From assembly GCA_905480125.1 (NCBI GenBank), contig CAJQPE010000050.1, forward strand, positions 1 to 39,503: a stretch of 39,503 nt of DNA. The letters run 5' to 3'. The position numbers and the translations under genes were made by a program. Under the pieces are notes generated by a model. It made no database searches, was not told the DNA's origin, and was given only the letters and a program-made list of their open reading frames with translations. Below, piece by piece: positions 3,503 through 19,959 of the stretch (position 1 is its first letter; every line of letters starts with the position of its first letter). This stretch comes from an uncultured Flavobacteriales bacterium (GTDB lineage Bacteria > Bacteroidota > Bacteroidia > Flavobacteriales_G > NORP312).

Positions 3503-4780
3503 TTATCTGCTAGGTAACGTAATTGCACCTTTAGCAATTCGATTTTCCCCGTTATTGTCAACATAAGTGGCAGTCCATGCATAAGTTCCTCCTTTGTTGG
3601 CGAATTCAGAAGAGCCCATAATAGACCCGTCCCACTTCTTATCAGTTGATGTGGTTTGAAAGACTACTGTTCCGTTAATGTCAGCAATAATCAGAGAGAA
3701 TTCACCATTCAAGCAATTTAGATGCTGTGGTAACCAGAAATCATTGATACCATCTCCGTTTGGTGAAAATGTTTTTAATGCAGCTAAATTATATTCACGA
3801 TCGATAGAGATTTCTTCAGTGTGGGTGCCGCTGCAGCCATAAATATTTTCTGTGACGAGAGTTATTTCGCTGTGTCCTTTGTTAAGAAACGCAAATGAAA
3901 GGGTAGCAGTTTCTGAGTGTTGAACCCCATTGATAAACCATTTCTGTTTATGAGACCCAATGCTAGAGGAAACGAATTCATGGTTTGTTTCACATTGACT
4001 CCAGTTTGGCTCAGTATAATCGAAACCAGCAATGGGGTTATCAGAAATTTTCACATCTGCTCGATAAGCGAAATGACTTTTTCTGGTAGATTTAGATGTA
4101 ATCGTTACAGCAACTTTATATGTGCCCTCGTCTTCATAAACATGACTTGGCATTTTGTCGAAGCCCATAGTTCCGTCACCAAAATCCCATTTATAGCTAC
4201 AATTACAACGGTCGTTCGTAGAGAACTGAACTTCTTCATTAATACAAGATACTTGTTTGGAAATAATTACCTCTGTAGGTTGCTGTAAAACGAAGGTCGG
4301 CAAATTCCCTTTTTCTTCCTTAATCTCCTTTTTTAAATTAGCAGAGGGTGAGTCATCATCAGCATCTATTAACATTAATCTTGCTGAAGGATTTTTAAGG
4401 ACTCCTATTTTTTCATTTCCATCGACATTTAATTCAATTTCGGTTTGTTTATCAGTTACTTCAGTAGAAATATTTTGTTTCTTTTGATGTTGAATTTGTC
4501 CAGAATCATTAAAAGAATTTTTCTCCTTAGCAATAGCTACCGAATTTGATTCTTTGGGTACATTAATATTTGTTACTAAAGTAGTATTTTGACTATCCGT
4601 ATTGTATACAAATGCTAATCCAGCTAACAACCCTATAAGAGCAGCAGCAATAAAACCAGCACCACTTTTTTTCTTTTTCGAAGCATCGAGCTTTTTCTCG
4701 AAAACATCCCAATCTGGAATAGCACCAGGAACTTGATAATTCTCTAATGCATCCTTTATTTTATGCTCTAAATTGGTCAT
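3503..4780 (-). CDS. Single-pass membrane protein with PKD and T9SS type B-like C-terminal domains; putative anti-sigma factor
   Basis: A 425-residue protein. Residues 1-40 are a charged, probably cytoplasmic segment (MTNLEHKIKDALENYQVPGA, then a K-K-K-K-S run). One transmembrane helix spans ~41-60 (GFIAAALIGLLAGLAFVY). A low-complexity linker follows to ~165, then a PKD domain (~170-245, YKWDFGDGTMGF), a second Ig/PKD-like module (~250-330), and a C-terminal domain typical of gliding-motility/CHU_C sorting domains (~333-425: FSPNGDGINDFW, a W-D-G motif, final G-A-I-T-L-P-S-R). It begins 3 bases after the stop of the ECF sigma gene. The order sigma then membrane protein, with a short cytoplasmic head, fits an anti-sigma factor. 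No standard zinc-binding anti-sigma motif is visible, so that role is inferred from position and topology. Alternatively it is an inner-membrane-anchored structural protein. Confidence 0.8.
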   Translation of the reverse strand: MTNLEHKIKDALENYQVPGAIPDWDVFEKKLDASKKKKSGAGFIAAALIGLLAGLAFVYNTDSQNTTLVTNINVPKESNSVAIAKEKNSFNDSGQIQHQKKQNISTEVTDKQTEIELNVDGNEKIGVLKNPSARLMLIDADDDSPSANLKKEIKEEKGNLPTFVLQQPTEVIISKQVSCINEEVQFSTNDRCNCSYKWDFGDGTMGFDKMPSHVYEDEGTYKVAVTITSKSTRKSHFAYRADVKISDNPIAGFDYTEPNWSQCETNHEFVSSSIGSHKQKWFINGVQHSETATLSFAFLNKGHSEITLVTENIYGCSGTHTEEISIDREYNLAALKTFSPNGDGINDFWLPQHLNCLNGEFSLIIADINGTVVFQTTSTDKKWDGSIMGSSEFANKGGTYAWTATYVDNNGENRIAKGAITLPSR

Positions 4781-4783
4781 AAA

Positions 4784-5356
4784 TTAAGAGTTAACTTTTG
4801 CTATTAAATTTGTTAGACGCTCTTTTAATCTTGCTTTTGCTTTAGATAAGTTAGACTTTGACGCACCGATGCTAATCTTAAGGTAATCGGCAATTTCTTG
4901 ATGAGAATATCCTTCGATCACATACATATTAAATACAGTTCTATAACCAGGGGAAAGATTTTCAATTTCATGCTGAATTCTGTCAGGGCTAACATTGTTC
5001 TCATCGAACCAGTTAAATTCTTCGTCTACTTCAAAATTTCGAGAATCTATTAGCTCTGAGTCAGTTTTAACTTTAGATTTATTCGACTTTCGAATTTCAT
5101 CAATCGCAACGTTCGAAACTATTCTTCGAACCCAGCCTACAAATGAACCCTCGTCACTATATTTATCAATATTGGTGAATACTTTTATGAAGCCTTCATG
5201 CAAAATATCTTTTGCATCTTCCATATTGCCCATATATCTTAAACTAACACCTAACATTTGAGTATAAAGTTGTTCATAAACCTTGCGCTGTGCGAGTCTG
5301 TCACCTTTTTTGCAGTCATTAACGAGCGCTTGTAAGTCGAGAGAGTCTGAACCCAT
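4784..5356 (-). CDS. ECF-type RNA polymerase sigma factor
   Basis: A 190-residue sigma-70 family protein with only regions 2 and 4, the size usual for ECF factors. Region 2 (~25-95) contains NMEDAKDILHEGFIKVF and the -10 recognition segment F-V-G-W-V-R-R-I-V-S-N. Region 4 (~130-182) contains LSPGYRTVFNMYVIEGYSHQ followed by the helix-turn-helix EIADYLKISIGASKSNLSKA. A 40-residue acidic linker separates them. It should direct RNA polymerase to a dedicated promoter set when released by its regulator. The likely regulator is the membrane protein encoded 3 bases downstream. The upstream neighbour, a T9SS type B cargo gene, ends 66 bases before it, so all may be one operon. No TAnnTTTG box was found in that gap. 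Confidence 0.92.
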   Translation of the reverse strand: MGSDSLDLQALVNDCKKGDRLAQRKVYEQLYTQMLGVSLRYMGNMEDAKDILHEGFIKVFTNIDKYSDEGSFVGWVRRIVSNVAIDEIRKSNKSKVKTDSELIDSRNFEVDEEFNWFDENNVSPDRIQHEIENLSPGYRTVFNMYVIEGYSHQEIADYLKISIGASKSNLSKAKARLKERLTNLIAKVNS

Positions 5357-5422
5357 GGTTTACTTTATATATTAGTAAGACGTTTAAAAATGAAATGGTT
5401 GCTTCGAAAGTCGAAAAAAAAA

Positions 5423-8400
5423 TTATCTAATCAAAGTTAACGACCCTTTAACGTGACTTTGTTCAAAGTCTCCAAAGCGGAGATAATCAATTTTGAATAC
5501 ATATCCACCTGTTTCTGAAAAGGCTCCATTACTCAATTTACCATCCCAACCTTCAGAAATATCCGCAGAGCTAAAGATTACGTTTCCCCAACGATTGTAT
5601 ATTGTAAGTACATAGTGGTCTGGGTTTATGCCCTCTCCCTTTGGTAAGAAAATATCATTAAGTCCGTCGGCATTTGGCGAAAACGAATTGGGAGTGTATA
5701 TTACCGTTTCATAGTCAATATGAATAGTAATATCGGATGTATCTTTGCAACCATTAGCCGTTTCTACAGCTAAAGTAATTGTATAGTAACCGGTATCTTT
5801 ATAAGTATGTTGTATGTTTTGTTCATTTGAGTTTTCTCCATCGCCAAAATCCCATTGCCAAAATTCTGGAATGTAAGATTGGTCAACCATTGTTGTTGTA
5901 GAAGTAATATTATCTAAGTTATAATCTGTAAGTACAAAGTTTGAAATAGGGTTTGGATAAACGTCTACGGCGCAGTAGATTATCGTGTCTCTTGTACAGC
6001 CAAGATTTGTAGTAACGCTTAATGATAAATCATAGCAGCCTGGATCAGGATAAAAATGCCCTACTGGCTTAGAGTTGAGTATAAATTCTCCAGAGGCATC
6101 ACCAAAATCCCAAATATAGTTTCGAGCATTTTTTATAGAGTCAACATAAAATTCCACATTAAGCGGAGCGCAACCTTTGCTAATACTCGGAGGAAATAAA
6201 ACAAAAATTGGGTATTGACCAGTTATTATATCAGTCCGAACAATAACTGCTGGTGTTTCGCAGCCATCTGTAAGAGTTAAAAAATATATAGCATCATCGA
6301 TAGGAGCAGCGCCTAATATCTCGCTAGAGCTTAAGCCGTTAGTCCATTGGTAAAAGTAATTTCCATCTCCTCCGGCTGTTAAGGCTTCGATGTAAACAGA
6401 GTCGCCATTACAAATGGTGTCTTTTTCAGCCATCAGAGCCGATAGAAAATCTCTCACATAAACTGTGTCAGAAATTGATTCCACACATCCTAACCCATCT
6501 GTAACAACAAGTGTATATTTTGTTTCGGTCGATGGAGAAAAGTAGATGGTATCGTTTGTTGATCCCGTGCTCCACAAATAAGTATATCCACCACTTCCCC
6601 CAATCGGATGAACTGTTAAGTGCCCAATTTCAGTTTGGCAAATAGTATCATTACCAGTTAGACTAACAGTAATAGCAGGGGGTTCGGAAATAGTCACAAC
6701 AAGATAATTTGTACAGGCATTAGCATCTGTTACCGTAACAGTATTTGTCCCAACGCAAAGACCAGTGCTTGACGTTGATGTTGAGTAATCTGGCCATAAA
6801 TAAGTGTATGGAGTTATCCCGCCAAAGTTATCAACTTCAGCAAATCCAGTACATTGACCAGCGCAGAAAACATCGGCATTACCAATCATAAATGTGTTAA
6901 TCGGCTCAGGTTGAGTGAGGTCAACTTGAATATTGATAGGGGCTGGAATACAATTATTAGCGTCTTCAATTTGTACAAAATAAGTTCCAGCTGGCATGTT
7001 ATAAAGTGTGTCAATACTATCGGTAACATTGGTCACGATGTTATTTAATGTGATATCCATCCACGTTATTGTATATGGAGCTGGACTAGCATCAAGAGAG
7101 TCATTTGCTATAATTACTAAGGATCCTGTACTATCTCCGCTACATAAATTTGAAACGGCATAGACCTCTGGTGGAAAGCAAATTCTACAGCTAGGGTCTG
7201 ATGAAGGCCTCACGTAAAAAGTGATAGCAGTGTCGTAGGAACAGCCAAAGTCATCTGTTAAGGTATAAGTATATGAAACGTCTCCACCATTGGTTGATGG
7301 TGAAACAAGAATTGAATCTCCAAAGTCAGTTAAAACATCTCCATCTGTAATCCAATTAGACGATGTTACACCTGGGTCGAAACCCCATAATTGATTTGGA
7401 AATATTGCCGGATTAAAGTCTACGTACCATGAGAATATAGCCCCATTATCGACACCGAGATTGTCCGTAATATTGATTGACCAATTACCATTTAATTCAC
7501 ATCCCAATAAAGCAGTTAATGGATTCTGCGAAGCATAAGATCCTGATGGCAGATAGGCTTGATTTACAACAGCTACTCCTGCATTATCTGTATAGCTATA
7601 AGTGTAATTAGCAGGAAATACGCTGGCTTCTGCATCCATTGTTCCATAAGTTGGGGCAGAGCTAAAACAGTAATCATAACCCAAACCTTGAATGTAAGGT
7701 CCGTTCGGTGGCGCTTGAAAAGCATCATTATCTACTGGTTCTCCTAGAAATGTGCCATTTCCGCCATTCGGATATTCTAGTAATATAACCGATTGACCAG
7801 TAGGGCAAGTTATTTCGATTTGTAAATCACCCATATAAGAATGCTCTAAATTGAGGCAAATTTCGGTGAGATCATTAATGTTAGTTAATGTTTGTCCAGG
7901 ACTAAAGTTCGATAAAGATACGGTGCTGCTATATGCTTGCCCCGCCCCATCCGGTAATTCAACAGTATCAGCCACTGCATTTCCATAGGGCTCGAACCAA
8001 GGATTGGAAACAGCAGAATCAATACTAATCGTATTTGTTTCTAAAAAACAAATTGTATCATCGAAGGATAAACCGTAAAAACTTGGGTCTGTAGATACCA
8101 TAACTCGCAAGTCTAAAAAGTTCTGACTAACGCAGTTGTTGGTATCGGTAATAATCAAATTGATACGATAGCCTTGTTGCTCAGGTAATACAGTATCAAT
8201 ATTTAGGCCTGTAATATCAATTAGACCGTCATCATCTATGTCCCACTCAAATGTATTTATAATATCACTTTGTGTATAATTGGTATTATTATCGGGATAA
8301 ATACCCGAACCTAATAAATGTAGCGAGTCACCTTGGCATAAATGAATTTCATTGCCCGGATTGATGATTGCAGGACTAGCTAGACCAATTACAGAAATTA

Positions 8401-8845
8401 TATCCTGACAAGGAACAAAGCATTGAATTAACGCTTCCCATCCTGTGCCACCGTTCGTTCCATCTGAAATGAACTCAAAAGTTAGACAGTCATTATTTCC
8501 TTGGATGGTTTGAACAGTTGCACCATTATCATATGCCCCAATCAATGTTGACGCAGTGCTGGGTCCGTCATATACATTTAATACATCACTTGTGTGGATA
8601 TCGAAAAGAGCCAAATTAAAGGTGATCATGGGAGATGCTCCTGCATTTGACGAGCAAATGGTTACTGTCGAAGTTTGATTAGCAGCATAATTTGAAGTTG
8701 AACCACCATCATCCATTAACAAACCTTCGCAGCTCGTAATTGTAACCGAAGCGTTTGGAGTCATAGGATATAGCGTCTGTCCAAAACTACTACAAACATT
8801 AAGCAGAATAGACAGAACAGCTGGTATGCAAAGAATTCTATTCAC
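5423..8845 (-). CDS. Large CUB / P-domain / SprB / PKD protein with T9SS type B sorting domain
   Basis: A complete 1140-residue secreted protein. Domains in order: signal peptide (1-23, ending C-S-S-F-G-Q); CUB-like domain (~30-140, with DVLNVYDGPSTASTLIGAYD); P-domain as in proprotein convertases (~310-480: TEICLNLEHSYMGDLQIEIT, then GNWSINITDNLGVDNGAIF); SprB-type repeats (~565-790, with repeated PYTYLW/GYTYLW cores); PKD domain (~882-955, YIWDFGD); second PKD (~995-1035, WQWDFGDGENS); and a type B gliding-motility C-terminal domain (~1046-1140: TPNSFSPNADGLNDIFLP, YNRWGNVIFSS, final K-G-S-L-T-L-I-R). Established T9SS biology implies outer-membrane translocation and cell-surface or extracellular placement. 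The start overlaps the preceding small secreted gene by 8 bases, so the two are probably translationally coupled. The binding target is unknown. Confidence 0.92.
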   Translation of the reverse strand: MNRILCIPAVLSILLNVCSSFGQTLYPMTPNASVTITSCEGLLMDDGGSTSNYAANQTSTVTICSSNAGASPMITFNLALFDIHTSDVLNVYDGPSTASTLIGAYDNGATVQTIQGNNDCLTFEFISDGTNGGTGWEALIQCFVPCQDIISVIGLASPAIINPGNEIHLCQGDSLHLLGSGIYPDNNTNYTQSDIINTFEWDIDDDGLIDITGLNIDTVLPEQQGYRINLIITDTNNCVSQNFLDLRVMVSTDPSFYGLSFDDTICFLETNTISIDSAVSNPWFEPYGNAVADTVELPDGAGQAYSSTVSLSNFSPGQTLTNINDLTEICLNLEHSYMGDLQIEITCPTGQSVILLEYPNGGNGTFLGEPVDNDAFQAPPNGPYIQGLGYDYCFSSAPTYGTMDAEASVFPANYTYSYTDNAGVAVVNQAYLPSGSYASQNPLTALLGCELNGNWSINITDNLGVDNGAIFSWYVDFNPAIFPNQLWGFDPGVTSSNWITDGDVLTDFGDSILVSPSTNGGDVSYTYTLTDDFGCSYDTAITFYVRPSSDPSCRICFPPEVYAVSNLCSGDSTGSLVIIANDSLDASPAPYTITWMDITLNNIVTNVTDSIDTLYNMPAGTYFVQIEDANNCIPAPINIQVDLTQPEPINTFMIGNADVFCAGQCTGFAEVDNFGGITPYTYLWPDYSTSTSSTGLCVGTNTVTVTDANACTNYLVVTISEPPAITVSLTGNDTICQTEIGHLTVHPIGGSGGYTYLWSTGSTNDTIYFSPSTETKYTLVVTDGLGCVESISDTVYVRDFLSALMAEKDTICNGDSVYIEALTAGGDGNYFYQWTNGLSSSEILGAAPIDDAIYFLTLTDGCETPAVIVRTDIITGQYPIFVLFPPSISKGCAPLNVEFYVDSIKNARNYIWDFGDASGEFILNSKPVGHFYPDPGCYDLSLSVTTNLGCTRDTIIYCAVDVYPNPISNFVLTDYNLDNITSTTTMVDQSYIPEFWQWDFGDGENSNEQNIQHTYKDTGYYTITLAVETANGCKDTSDITIHIDYETVIYTPNSFSPNADGLNDIFLPKGEGINPDHYVLTIYNRWGNVIFSSADISEGWDGKLSNGAFSETGGYVFKIDYLRFGDFEQSHVKGSLTLIR

Positions 8846-9287
8846 TTAAAAATTCGTTATAGTTTTTTAAAAACTCATCTTGAGAATAAAAAACAATCAT
8901 TTTTCCCGTATTACCAATTTTGTAAAACGTTCTTGTTTTTTGCTCTCTCGTAAAATTGTAATTCAGCACATTAAAATTGCTAAGCTGGTTGGTGTCAATT
9001 ATTAGATTGCCAACTACTCCATTTTTGTCTGGTACCGTGTTAATATCTTCATAAGGTTTTCCTTTTGGGTAGTCCATAATAAAATAGGAGTGCTCAAGAA
9101 AATAGGTTAAGTACGTAAGTCTATTCGGAGATTCTAGCTCCATTCGAGTAACATAATCGACACCATATGTCTCTATTATACGAATATCTATATTTGAAGG
9201 AGTCGCATTTTGGCCATAAACATTTACCCTTGCGATTAGTGTAATCAATAATAATAAGTAAATGAATTTTTTTTCAATCAAAGCCAT
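8838..9287 (-). CDS. Small secreted protein of unknown function, coupled to the giant T9SS cargo gene
   Basis: The frame is open from 9329, but the ATG at 9287 is preferred. It gives 149 residues beginning MALIEKKFIYLLLLITLIAR, a proper signal peptide cleaved near V-Y-G-Q, and it sits behind an A-rich leader. The mature protein has no motif I recognise. It is rich in tyrosine and asparagine, and part of it (NVLNYNFTREQKTRTFYKIG) reads as beta strands. Its 3' end overlaps the start of the 1140-residue cargo gene by 8 bases, so co-expression is very likely. It could be a periplasmic accessory to export or anchoring of that protein, but this is position-based inference. Confidence 0.75.
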   Translation of the reverse strand: MALIEKKFIYLLLLITLIARVNVYGQNATPSNIDIRIIETYGVDYVTRMELESPNRLTYLTYFLEHSYFIMDYPKGKPYEDINTVPDKNGVVGNLIIDTNQLSNFNVLNYNFTREQKTRTFYKIGNTGKMIVFYSQDEFLKNYNEFLSE

Positions 9288-9430
9288 CTTATTTTTCGCG
9301 AAGTTACTACATGATCGATTAGAAGTCAAACAGATTCTTCACAATCACAATTTTAAGTTGTTTAATATTGGATTTTTAATTCGGTGCTTCTATAACGATA
9401 TAATCGAGCAATGGTTGCTTTATTACTAGG

Positions 9431-17925: not shown

Positions 17926-19959
17926 ATGAAAATAGTTAAGATAGTTCCAATAATACTAGCACTTCTTGTTTCAAGTGTTGCATTTGCTCAGAAGAACTTT
18001 ACCGAAATTGCCGATGCATCTTTTGAGCACCATAAGTACCACGGTGCCATTGAGGAATATAAAAAAGCGTATAGTAAAGAAAAAAAGGACTCAGAGAAAG
18101 CAAGAATTCTTTTCCAGATTGGCGAGTGTTATCATAAGTTTATGGATGAAAAACAAGCGGAGGTTTGGTATAAGAAAGCTGTAAAAGCTGGTTATGCAAA
18201 CATAGAGCCTATTGTATGGCATCAGCTTGGTGTCGTTTTAAAACTTCAAGAAAAATATGAAAAAGCTGAGGTAGAATTTGAAAACTACCTTAAAGTAGTG
18301 CCAGGTGATGCGAAAGCTAAAGCCGGATTAGAATCCTGTAAATTAGCAGAACAATGGAAAGCTAAGCCGACAAAACACGATATTCACAACGAGGTAATGT
18401 TGAACTCTAAATTCTATGATTATTCACCAACTTTTGCAGATAAAAAGAATCAATCGTTAATATTTGTTTCTAGTCGTCCAGATGGAATGGGCGATGGCCT
18501 AGATCCTAATAGTGGTGAACATTATCCAGATTTATTTTACACAAAAAAAGACAGAAAAGGAAAGTGGAGTACACCTGTTCCCTTGAATGAAACAGTAAAT
18601 ACTTCGCATAGTGAGGGCTCTGCTGCACTAGACAGAAAGAAAAGTATGATGTATTTCATGAGGTGTGAATCTGATAAAAAAGGCAAGAAAGATTTGCATT
18701 GCCATATATACAAAGCTCAAAAAATGGGTAATAATTTCGGTGAGGCTACTTTATTTGATTTATGGGATGATACTGCAGCTTATCGTTACAATTTTGGTTA
18801 CCCTAGTATGTCAAGCAATGACGAGTATATGTACTTTTCATCTAATATACCTGGAGGAAAAGGACATAATGATATTTGGTTCATAAAGTATGATAAAAAA
18901 GCGAAAACATGGACTCAACCTATAAATGCTGAAGGAATCAATACCCCAGAGGATGACGTTTTTCCTTTTATTGCTGAGAATGGCAAACTTTATTTTGCTT
19001 CAGAAGGGCACTTAGGAATGGGTGGTATGGACATGTTTGTTGCAACTTCACAAGGCGAAGATCAATGGGGCGATGTTCAAAACTTGAAGTTCCCATTAAA
19101 TTCATCTGCGGATGATTTCGGAATCATTTTCGAAGGGAAGCAAGAAAAAGGTTATTTTACTTCTAATAGAAGAAATGGCAGAGGTGGAGATGATATCTAC
19201 AGTTTTTACACAGCTCCTATTATTTACAAGATTAGTGGTACTGTATACGAAATTGGTTCTTTAGAGCCAGTGCAGGGAGCTGTTGTGAAACTTACAGATA
19301 ACCAAGGTGTGTCGGTTGAGTTAATTACTGATGAAGCAGGAAAATATTCTTTTAATGTAAAAGAGGGTACAAAGGATAGGTATATTCAACCTGAAACTTC
19401 TTATACTATGGATGTAACCAAAAAGGATTACTTAAGCGCGAAAACAGAAGAAAGCACTGTTGGTGTGGAAGAATCAACAGAGTTTATTCATGATTTTAAT
19501 ATTCAGCCAACAATCGTCGATGGTCAGAAAATTGAAATTAAATTTCCTGAAGTATTATACGATTTAGCTAAATATTCTTTAAGACCAGAATCGAAAGATT
19601 CATTAAATTTCTTGTATCAAACATTAATAGATAATCCAACAATTGTAATTGAATTATCTGCTCACACAGATTCTAGAGGTAGTGATAATTCAAATCAAAC
19701 CTTATCTGAAAATAGAGCTAAATCATGTGTAGACTATTTAATTGAAAAAGGTATTGCAGCAGATAGAATGGTAGCTGTAGGTTATGGAGAAAATAAATTG
19801 ATTTTCTCTGATGCGGACATCGCAAAGTTCAAAACAAAAGAAGAGCAAGAAGCTGCTCATCAAAAGAACCGAAGAACAGTATTTAGTGTTTTAAGGGACG
19901 ATTATGTGCCTCAAAGCTCAGGGGCAACTGAAGATAAAGTGCCAGGGGAAGAGCAGTAG
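17926..19959 (+). CDS. PorE-like T9SS component: TPR, PD40 propeller, CRD-like and OmpA domains
   Basis: 677 residues. The signal peptide is MKIVKIVPIILALLVSSVAF with cleavage near F-A-Q. TPR helices span ~25-150 (EIADASFEHHKYHGAIEEYK; AEVWYKKAVKAGY). A PD40/WD40-type propeller spans ~160-430, with repeated blades such as SLIFVSSRPDGMGDG, EYMYFSSNIPGGKGHNDIW and KGYFTSNRRNGRGGDDIY. A carboxypeptidase-regulatory-like domain spans ~433-525 (ISGTVYEIGSLEPVQGAVV). An OmpA peptidoglycan-binding domain spans ~535-655 (IELSAHTDSRGSDNSN; SENRAKSCVDYL). This four-domain order is that described for PorE (PG1058) of Porphyromonas gingivalis, a T9SS component tied to peptidoglycan. Unlike that lipoprotein, this one shows an ordinary signal peptide. 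Other OmpA-family proteins of Bacteroidota share the layout, so strict orthology needs a tree. Confidence 0.85.
   Translation: MKIVKIVPIILALLVSSVAFAQKNFTEIADASFEHHKYHGAIEEYKKAYSKEKKDSEKARILFQIGECYHKFMDEKQAEVWYKKAVKAGYANIEPIVWHQLGVVLKLQEKYEKAEVEFENYLKVVPGDAKAKAGLESCKLAEQWKAKPTKHDIHNEVMLNSKFYDYSPTFADKKNQSLIFVSSRPDGMGDGLDPNSGEHYPDLFYTKKDRKGKWSTPVPLNETVNTSHSEGSAALDRKKSMMYFMRCESDKKGKKDLHCHIYKAQKMGNNFGEATLFDLWDDTAAYRYNFGYPSMSSNDEYMYFSSNIPGGKGHNDIWFIKYDKKAKTWTQPINAEGINTPEDDVFPFIAENGKLYFASEGHLGMGGMDMFVATSQGEDQWGDVQNLKFPLNSSADDFGIIFEGKQEKGYFTSNRRNGRGGDDIYSFYTAPIIYKISGTVYEIGSLEPVQGAVVKLTDNQGVSVELITDEAGKYSFNVKEGTKDRYIQPETSYTMDVTKKDYLSAKTEESTVGVEESTEFIHDFNIQPTIVDGQKIEIKFPEVLYDLAKYSLRPESKDSLNFLYQTLIDNPTIVIELSAHTDSRGSDNSNQTLSENRAKSCVDYLIEKGIAADRMVAVGYGENKLIFSDADIAKFKTKEEQEAAHQKNRRTVFSVLRDDYVPQSSGATEDKVPGEEQ

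Follow-up and report, generated by a model that had tools for sequence, protein, structure and literature searches.

The question raised by this locus is why a domain resembling the sorting tail of type B T9SS cargo should be found on a protein that is predicted to be tethered in the inner membrane and is encoded directly behind an ECF sigma factor gene. We know of no answer to how cargo synthesis is matched to secretion capacity outside the PorXY-SigP pathway of Porphyromonas gingivalis. The reading favoured here, to which a probability of roughly 0.55 is assigned, is that the two proteins form an anti-sigma/sigma pair setting T9SS cargo expression, with the tail-like domain serving as a mimic by which the state of secretion would be sensed. 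It is supported computationally by the conservation of the pair, the predicted folding of the head with the sigma factor, a shared predicted promoter, and a predicted regulon rich in cargo. The window, that is, the whole stretch of 39,503 nucleotides that was analyzed, contains the pair with the following features.

4784..5356 (-): ECF sigma factor gene, 190 aa, regions 2 and 4 (Pfam Sigma70_r2 and Sigma70_r4_2; TIGR02937)
3503..4780 (-): candidate anti-sigma factor gene, 425 aa, head-TM-linker-PKD-Ig-CHU_C (domain matches, model, conserved pair)
4661..4780 (-): predicted cytoplasmic head, residues 1-40, two helices, invariant W24 (homologue alignments; models)
4601..4654 (-): predicted transmembrane (TM) helix, about residues 43-60 (hydropathy in homologues; helix in the model)
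4283..4600 (-): predicted periplasmic linker of low confidence, residues 61-166 (pLDDT <50 for residues 60-155; median length in homologues)
4088..4282 (-): PKD module 1, residues 167-231 (PKD_4, E=1.7e-14)
3800..4045 (-): PKD/Ig module 2, about residues 246-327 (PKD structures matched by the family profile; modelled as a beta fold)
3515..3775 (-): CHU_C / T9SS type B tail-like domain, residues 336-422, without RWG (CHU_C; TIGR04131)

Both genes and their anatomy, which the earlier note had described as a sigma gene followed after 3 bases by a head-TM-linker-PKD-PKD-tail protein, are confirmed by open reading frames, Pfam, NCBIfam, and the structure model. The sigma factor matches Sigma70_r2 (E=2.5e-14) and Sigma70_r4_2 (E=1.3e-14) of Pfam and exceeds the cut-off of TIGR02937 of NCBIfam. 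The ATG of its partner is at 4780, leaving a gap of 3 nt after the sigma stop codon, and the partner's own stop is at 3503. The head (residues 1-40) is charged and is predicted to form two short helices; a KKKK stretch is located on the N-side of the TM helix, and the three beta modules are confidently predicted in the structure model. For module 2 of the window protein no Pfam match is obtained; the family profile at this position matches PKD-domain structures (4l9d, E=1.7e-9; 6aem, E=5.6e-9), and the module is modelled mostly at pLDDT >90. The C-terminal domain matches CHU_C with E=2.9e-10 and 40.6 bits (cut-off 27) and TIGR04131 with 36.2 bits, which is just over the cut-off of 35.

Orthologous sigma/anti-sigma pairs are present in all three genomes examined of the source's family, and with the first 80 residues of the candidate anti-sigma factor as query, matches are obtained in 12 of 42 genomes of the order. 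Among nine matched loci inspected outside the family, eight encode a sigma factor followed by a head-TM-linker-PKD/Ig-CHU_C protein and one a sigma factor followed by head-TM with a beta-barrel domain. A profile of head and TM helix, built from 12 rows, matches 296 of 395 genomes of the class, and an ECF sigma ORF lies immediately 5' on the same strand in 59/59 sampled head loci from many families. As an independent test, GTDB genomes were searched with an alignment of the sigma factor only; the best 80 loci all have an adjoining downstream ORF, and the head scored in 75 of them. The arrangement of the pair is not a matter of chance, and the switch is widespread in Flavobacteriales-type bacteria. 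Its tail class includes a culturable organism, Cryomorpha ignava (locus L178). Recurrence of the architecture in Bacteroidota had been anticipated in the earlier note, as had the lack of a functional description; in the literature searched, with subscription papers and preprints outside its scope, no description of a PKD/CHU_C or head-barrel anti-sigma factor was found.

The sensor end differs between members. About half of the head-bearing proteins have a CHU_C-like tail and the rest outer-membrane barrels or short ends; at the 80 sigma-picked loci, the tail is clear in 38, or in 39 with a looser cut. CHU_C is matched by 30 and PKD_4 by 28 of the 31 tail-type proteins scanned. Among 22 long non-tail proteins, an outer-membrane barrel model is matched by 12, and there is a single PorP/SprF-like, a single SusC/RagA-like, and a single vWA-like member. 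Since other members of the head family bear barrels or short ends, the sensor module appears to be swappable. In a quick tree of the sigma factors, 5 changes suffice to account for the tail label, compared with 27 in shuffles, and the tail class may have a single origin on that tree. No class I anti-sigma domain (RseA/zinc type) is recognized by Pfam, either in the window protein or among the 31 tail-class members, and the NCBIfam model NF052375 ("anti-sigma factor") weakly matches one tail-class and three long-class members. The presence of a T9SS was rejected as a discriminator of the tail class, SprA being found in 59/59 sampled genomes, with or without this class.

In loci of the long class, L100:1807-3411 and L038:334-1728 among them, head and TM helix are joined to an outer-membrane barrel instead of PKD-CHU_C, which would put a barrel on an inner-membrane-anchored protein. 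The barrel end of L100 is PorP/SprF-like, a family binding type B tails. Judged by eye, the head is seemingly duplicated in tandem before the TM helix in L171, L207, L089, and L100, where two W-containing repeats are seen.

Upstream of the tail-class sigma genes, a motif is found that is composed of GGCAACC, a spacer of 14-16 nt (mostly 15), and CGTCT or CGTTT; its usual distance from the ATG is 5-25 nt. When these regions are scanned for dyads, 16 of 40 are obtained, compared with at most 8 in shuffles, and the full promoter pattern occurs at 34/39 tail-class loci versus 5/41 others. The tail-class sigma group is predicted to share a promoter of its own, with an AAC-type -35 and a CGT-type -10 element. 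Such sites, and the genes next to the pair, are located in the window as follows.

5378..5403 (-): predicted sigma-specific promoter in front of the sigma/anti-sigma genes; AGCAACC-N14-CGTCT, with 21 nt to the ATG (motif scan)
5423..8845 (-): T9SS type B cargo, 1140 aa, intact NRWG tail (CHU_C, E=2.7e-14; TIGR04131, 44.7 bits)
8838..9287 (-): ORF149, start codon at 9287; encodes a small secreted protein and is the gene next downstream of the second promoter (ORF list)
9393..9419 (-): second predicted promoter, a variant with CGTTA located 105 nt ahead of ORF149 (motif scan; kept in G002)

The window-type site also precedes the sigma gene in genomes G001 and G002. Read from the second site, the gene order is ORF149, running into the type B cargo gene, then sigma and anti-sigma. 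ORF149 has no Pfam or NCBIfam match, and the CGTTA-variant site is kept upstream of the same gene in the sister genome G002. The adjacent cargo gene, which had been named in the earlier note as a natural target, is in fact a plausible one, as a predicted promoter of the same type, kept in the sister species, lies upstream of the ORF149-cargo unit. G000 and G002 have further sites in common; the genes behind them encode a CHU_C cargo of 1983 aa, one more large secreted protein, and two small ones. A CHU_C cargo gene is found near 11/39 tail-class pairs versus 2/41 others (p=0.006; closely related loci included). In a single comparison, ORF149 weakly resembles (E=1e-4) a secreted protein of 142 aa from G001, whose gene follows a motif site (L305).

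Over 28 tail-class genomes, the exact pattern GGCAACC-N15-CGTCT gives about 75 matches versus 30 for the reversed pattern; in G000-G002 the exact-motif totals are not above the reversed control, and the signal there lies in position only, the sites being extragenic and ahead of genes of secreted proteins. For the site statistics, non-sigma matches and controls were treated under one rule, one site inside an anti-sigma gene was left out, and genome G092 was excluded, which has 15 matches, many of them inside ORFs, and whose matched sequences look GC-rich. On this basis, 44/48 motif sites but only 2/28 control sites lie outside ORFs (p=6e-14), and an ORF start follows within 130 nt at 29 motif sites versus 0 control sites. 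A signal-peptide-like start is seen in 22 of the 29 downstream proteins; TIGR04131 is matched by 7 of the 29 and TIGR04183 by 9. When C-termini are inspected by eye, about 14 of 24 judgeable target proteins end in a T9SS sorting domain; against an estimated background of 5-10%, this corresponds to p<1e-8, the numerator being a judgement. A T9SS machinery gene was not recognized among the 29 exact-motif targets. That the predicted regulon comprises mostly secreted proteins, about half of them with T9SS sorting domains, is well supported at the sequence level. The non-tail classes yield only weak dyads just above shuffles (GCAG-N18-CGTT in 7/22 long-class and AACC-N19-CTTA in 7/19 short-class loci); the short and long classes mostly lack the tail-class motif, and each sensor class may have its own promoter.

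The tail-like domain itself was aligned with true type B tails (30 sigma-paired and 32 cargo tails). The W of the RWG motif is present in 29/32 cargo tails versus 0/30 sigma-paired tails, and with the motif absent from 38 further sigma-paired tails as well, the overall count is 0/68, which refers to rows and not to independent lineages, the sets of sigma-paired tails partly overlapping (L075, for example, is identical with locus L180), and a p-value computed from these rows overstates the contrast. Some of the cargo tails were picked by the TIGR04131 model, which favours the RWG motif; the cargo tails picked by similarity to the anti-sigma factor itself all carry WG. Common to sigma-paired and cargo tails, at the very C-terminus, are FSPNGDGxND, WDG, and a closing G, and TIGR04131 is still matched by 27/31 tail-class proteins. 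The tail had earlier been taken as type B-like, which holds with regard to CHU_C and TIGR04131 and fails with regard to the RWG motif of most true tails. In Flavobacterium johnsoniae, each of five conserved type B motifs is required for secretion of an SprB-CTD reporter (PMC12618676), and RWG would fall within one of these. The loss of RWG argues for a tail-like domain as opposed to an ordinary sorting tail, and the domain is probably export-incompetent and probably no export signal. Type B cargo of the T9SS (PMC12618676) likewise has a C-terminal CHU_C domain behind PKD modules, but there it is combined with a signal peptide and RWG, whereas the candidate anti-sigma factor has a predicted N-terminal anchor and is missing RWG.

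With RWG absent, there may be no contact at all between the tail and the T9SS. The pair could be an ordinary anti-sigma/sigma pair, with PKD-PKD-CHU_C being an Ig-fold sensor drawn from the adhesin domain pool that senses glycan, envelope stress, or, through two conserved Cys residues, redox state; the cargo regulon would reflect surface remodelling and not T9SS status. This explanation, considered less likely than the favoured one, draws not only on the loss of RWG in all sigma-paired tails, but also on the fold neighbours of the ectodomain, which are generic adhesin and Ig proteins, for example GhpA, on the exchange of the sensor end in relatives, and on C179 and C316, which are invariant across 36 homologues. 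It is at odds with the retention of FSPNGDGxND, WDG, and the closing G at the C-terminus, with the TIGR04131 matches of the tail class, and with the richness of the predicted targets in T9SS cargo.

As proposed in the earlier note, the head was modelled on the sigma factor. As input for the structure job, natural in-frame sigma/anti-sigma neighbours were joined through the stop codon, and the alignment consisted of in-frame fusions and sigma-only rows; the homologous pair L180 was placed first because of its 25-residue in-frame gap. In the L180 model, the sigma domains and both head helices reach a pLDDT of about 93-97 (the head 94-97) and the linker is near 50-67, compared with 50-76 for the head of the window anti-sigma factor modelled alone, where protein and alignment differ, so that like regions are compared and not one molecule. 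In these models, the head folds confidently only with sigma present, and a sigma-head interface would be predicted. The nearest structures found by Foldseek are the sigma chains of AlgU-MucA, SigW-RsiW, sigmaE-RseA, and CnrH-CnrY. The model reaches TM-scores of 0.53-0.63 against SigW-RsiW and CnrH-CnrY (0.62-0.63 for the SigW chains in complex with RsiW), and lower ones of 0.32-0.41 against mycobacterial sigma H or L bound to RNA polymerase. The view that the membrane protein is a sensor-type anti-sigma factor is in line with this prediction and with the conserved pair. It is improbable that the membrane protein is, conversely, a positive co-factor needed by the sigma factor. Gene order and topology do not separate an inhibitor from an activator, and some Bacteroidota and FecR-type regulators act positively; yet the nearest structures are sigma chains of inhibited complexes, which the model resembles more closely than RNA polymerase-bound sigma.

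The hydrophobic helix of the tail class, the single one in each protein, begins at residue 35-61; according to hydropathy and homologues, it is not in the position of a signal peptide and sits behind the conserved head. A helix at 35-61 together with a conserved sigma-associated head argues for an N-in anchor and against a signal peptide, so that a topology with an N-in inner-membrane anchor, and with it the tether assumed at the outset, would be plausible. Between TM helix and conserved Cys, the linker has a median length of 111 residues (36 homologues) and, fully stretched, could span a periplasm. Alternatively, the 425-aa protein could be ordinary T9SS cargo whose signal peptide is unusually long and whose place behind the sigma gene is coincidental or merely operonic. 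This would agree with its cargo-like PKD and CHU_C modules and with the cargo genes that do adjoin such pairs, but is very improbable in view of the conservation of the head beside sigma (59/59 and 75/80 loci), its occurrence on proteins with other ends, its folding with sigma in the model, and the absence of RWG.

According to the preferred reading, namely, that the pair couples cargo expression to secretion, the anti-sigma factor would reside in the inner membrane, where its 40-residue two-helix head would hold the ECF sigma factor on the cytoplasmic side, while the two PKD/Ig modules and the type B tail-like domain would extend into the periplasm on a flexible linker of about 110 residues. 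Freed sigma factor would transcribe its own operon and genes of secreted proteins, including much T9SS cargo, at promoters of the GGCAACC-N15-CGTCT type, with the neighbouring cargo operon of the window as one predicted target. The tail-like domain would be an export-incompetent cargo mimic engaging a cargo-recognizing component of the T9SS (e.g., a PorP/SprF-like or PorV shuttle, or SprA), and occupancy of the machine or a backlog of cargo would decide whether sigma is free. We infer in this scheme that the head inhibits sigma, how the protein is oriented in the membrane, what is bound by the tail, in which direction the signal runs, and how sigma is released, be it by proteolysis or by a conformational change. 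The original interpretation is supported in part, namely, with regard to the anti-sigma factor, tether, pair, and plausible cargo target, and what the tail senses keeps its conditional form.

The output of sigma28 follows flagellar export through FlgM. The present pair would be alike if the tail reports export capacity, the transcription of substrates being tied to the state of the exporter in either case; FlgM, however, is soluble and itself exported, whereas the candidate anti-sigma factor is predicted to be membrane-anchored.

In terms of layout, but not of any demonstrated sequence similarity, the pair is like CnrH-CnrY of Cupriavidus metallidurans (class II anti-sigma factor, PMC7406223), where a two-helix cytoplasmic segment likewise precedes a single TM helix and the ECF sigma factor is encoded in the same unit; the PKD-CHU_C periplasmic part is particular to the candidate anti-sigma factor, and the binding topology of its head is taken from the model. 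The short two-helix domain of class II contacts regions 2 and 4 of the sigma factor, and the two helices of the candidate, confident only with sigma present, may or may not do so. In P. gingivalis, PorA, a CTD protein, acts upstream of PorXY-SigP (PMC7712824), which likewise places a T9SS-CTD protein upstream of a T9SS-linked ECF sigma factor (PMC7712824, PMC4800418). PorA, however, is a signal-peptide surface protein feeding a two-component system, while here the tail sits on the anti-sigma factor itself, and SigP drives T9SS machinery genes, while the predicted targets of the window-type sigma factor are cargo. The SM6 promoters of F. psychrophilum are of ECF type with a CGT -10 box and drive T9SS machinery genes and one sigma/anti-sigma pair (PMC9723704). 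They are similar in the -10 box, in having T9SS-related targets, and in including a pair (THC0290_1774/1773) among them; the T9SS targets listed for SM6 are machinery genes (GldN, PorU, and a PorM/PorN partner), unlike the cargo targets here.

A class I anti-sigma gene is found nearby for only 6% of Bacteroidetes ECFs versus 32% on average (PMC7406223). With the head beside 75/80 sampled sigma factors and in 296/395 genomes of the class, the head family could be the missing anti-sigma class. In a wider form, to which slightly less than an even chance is given, Flavobacteriales and their neighbours would use an export-incompetent T9SS tail mimic on anti-sigma factors for sensing cargo flow and tuning cargo transcription, and the head family would be the missing main anti-sigma class for Bacteroidota ECF sigma factors, its sensor ends looking like clients that are secreted or sit in the outer membrane (CHU_C tails; beta-barrels, PorP-like or other). 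New are the tail, barrel, and short end classes, the tail without RWG, and the tail-class promoter with its cargo-rich sites. Together, the sigma factor, the candidate anti-sigma factor and its tail-like sensor, the promoter motif, and the list of predicted targets make up a testable circuit.

Some further genes in the window and behind motif sites may be mentioned. At 17926-19959 (+) of the window, a putative TPR/PD40/OmpA-like protein is recognized by eye that would resemble the PorE group. Small membrane proteins are encoded directly behind exact motif sites in three genomes (L292:5467-5910, L295:181-603, and L341), and DUF5684 is matched by two members of the predicted target set. In G231, two more ECF sigma genes (L329:189-800 and L330:204-749) are preceded by exact motif sites, which hints at a cascade of sigma factors in this genome.
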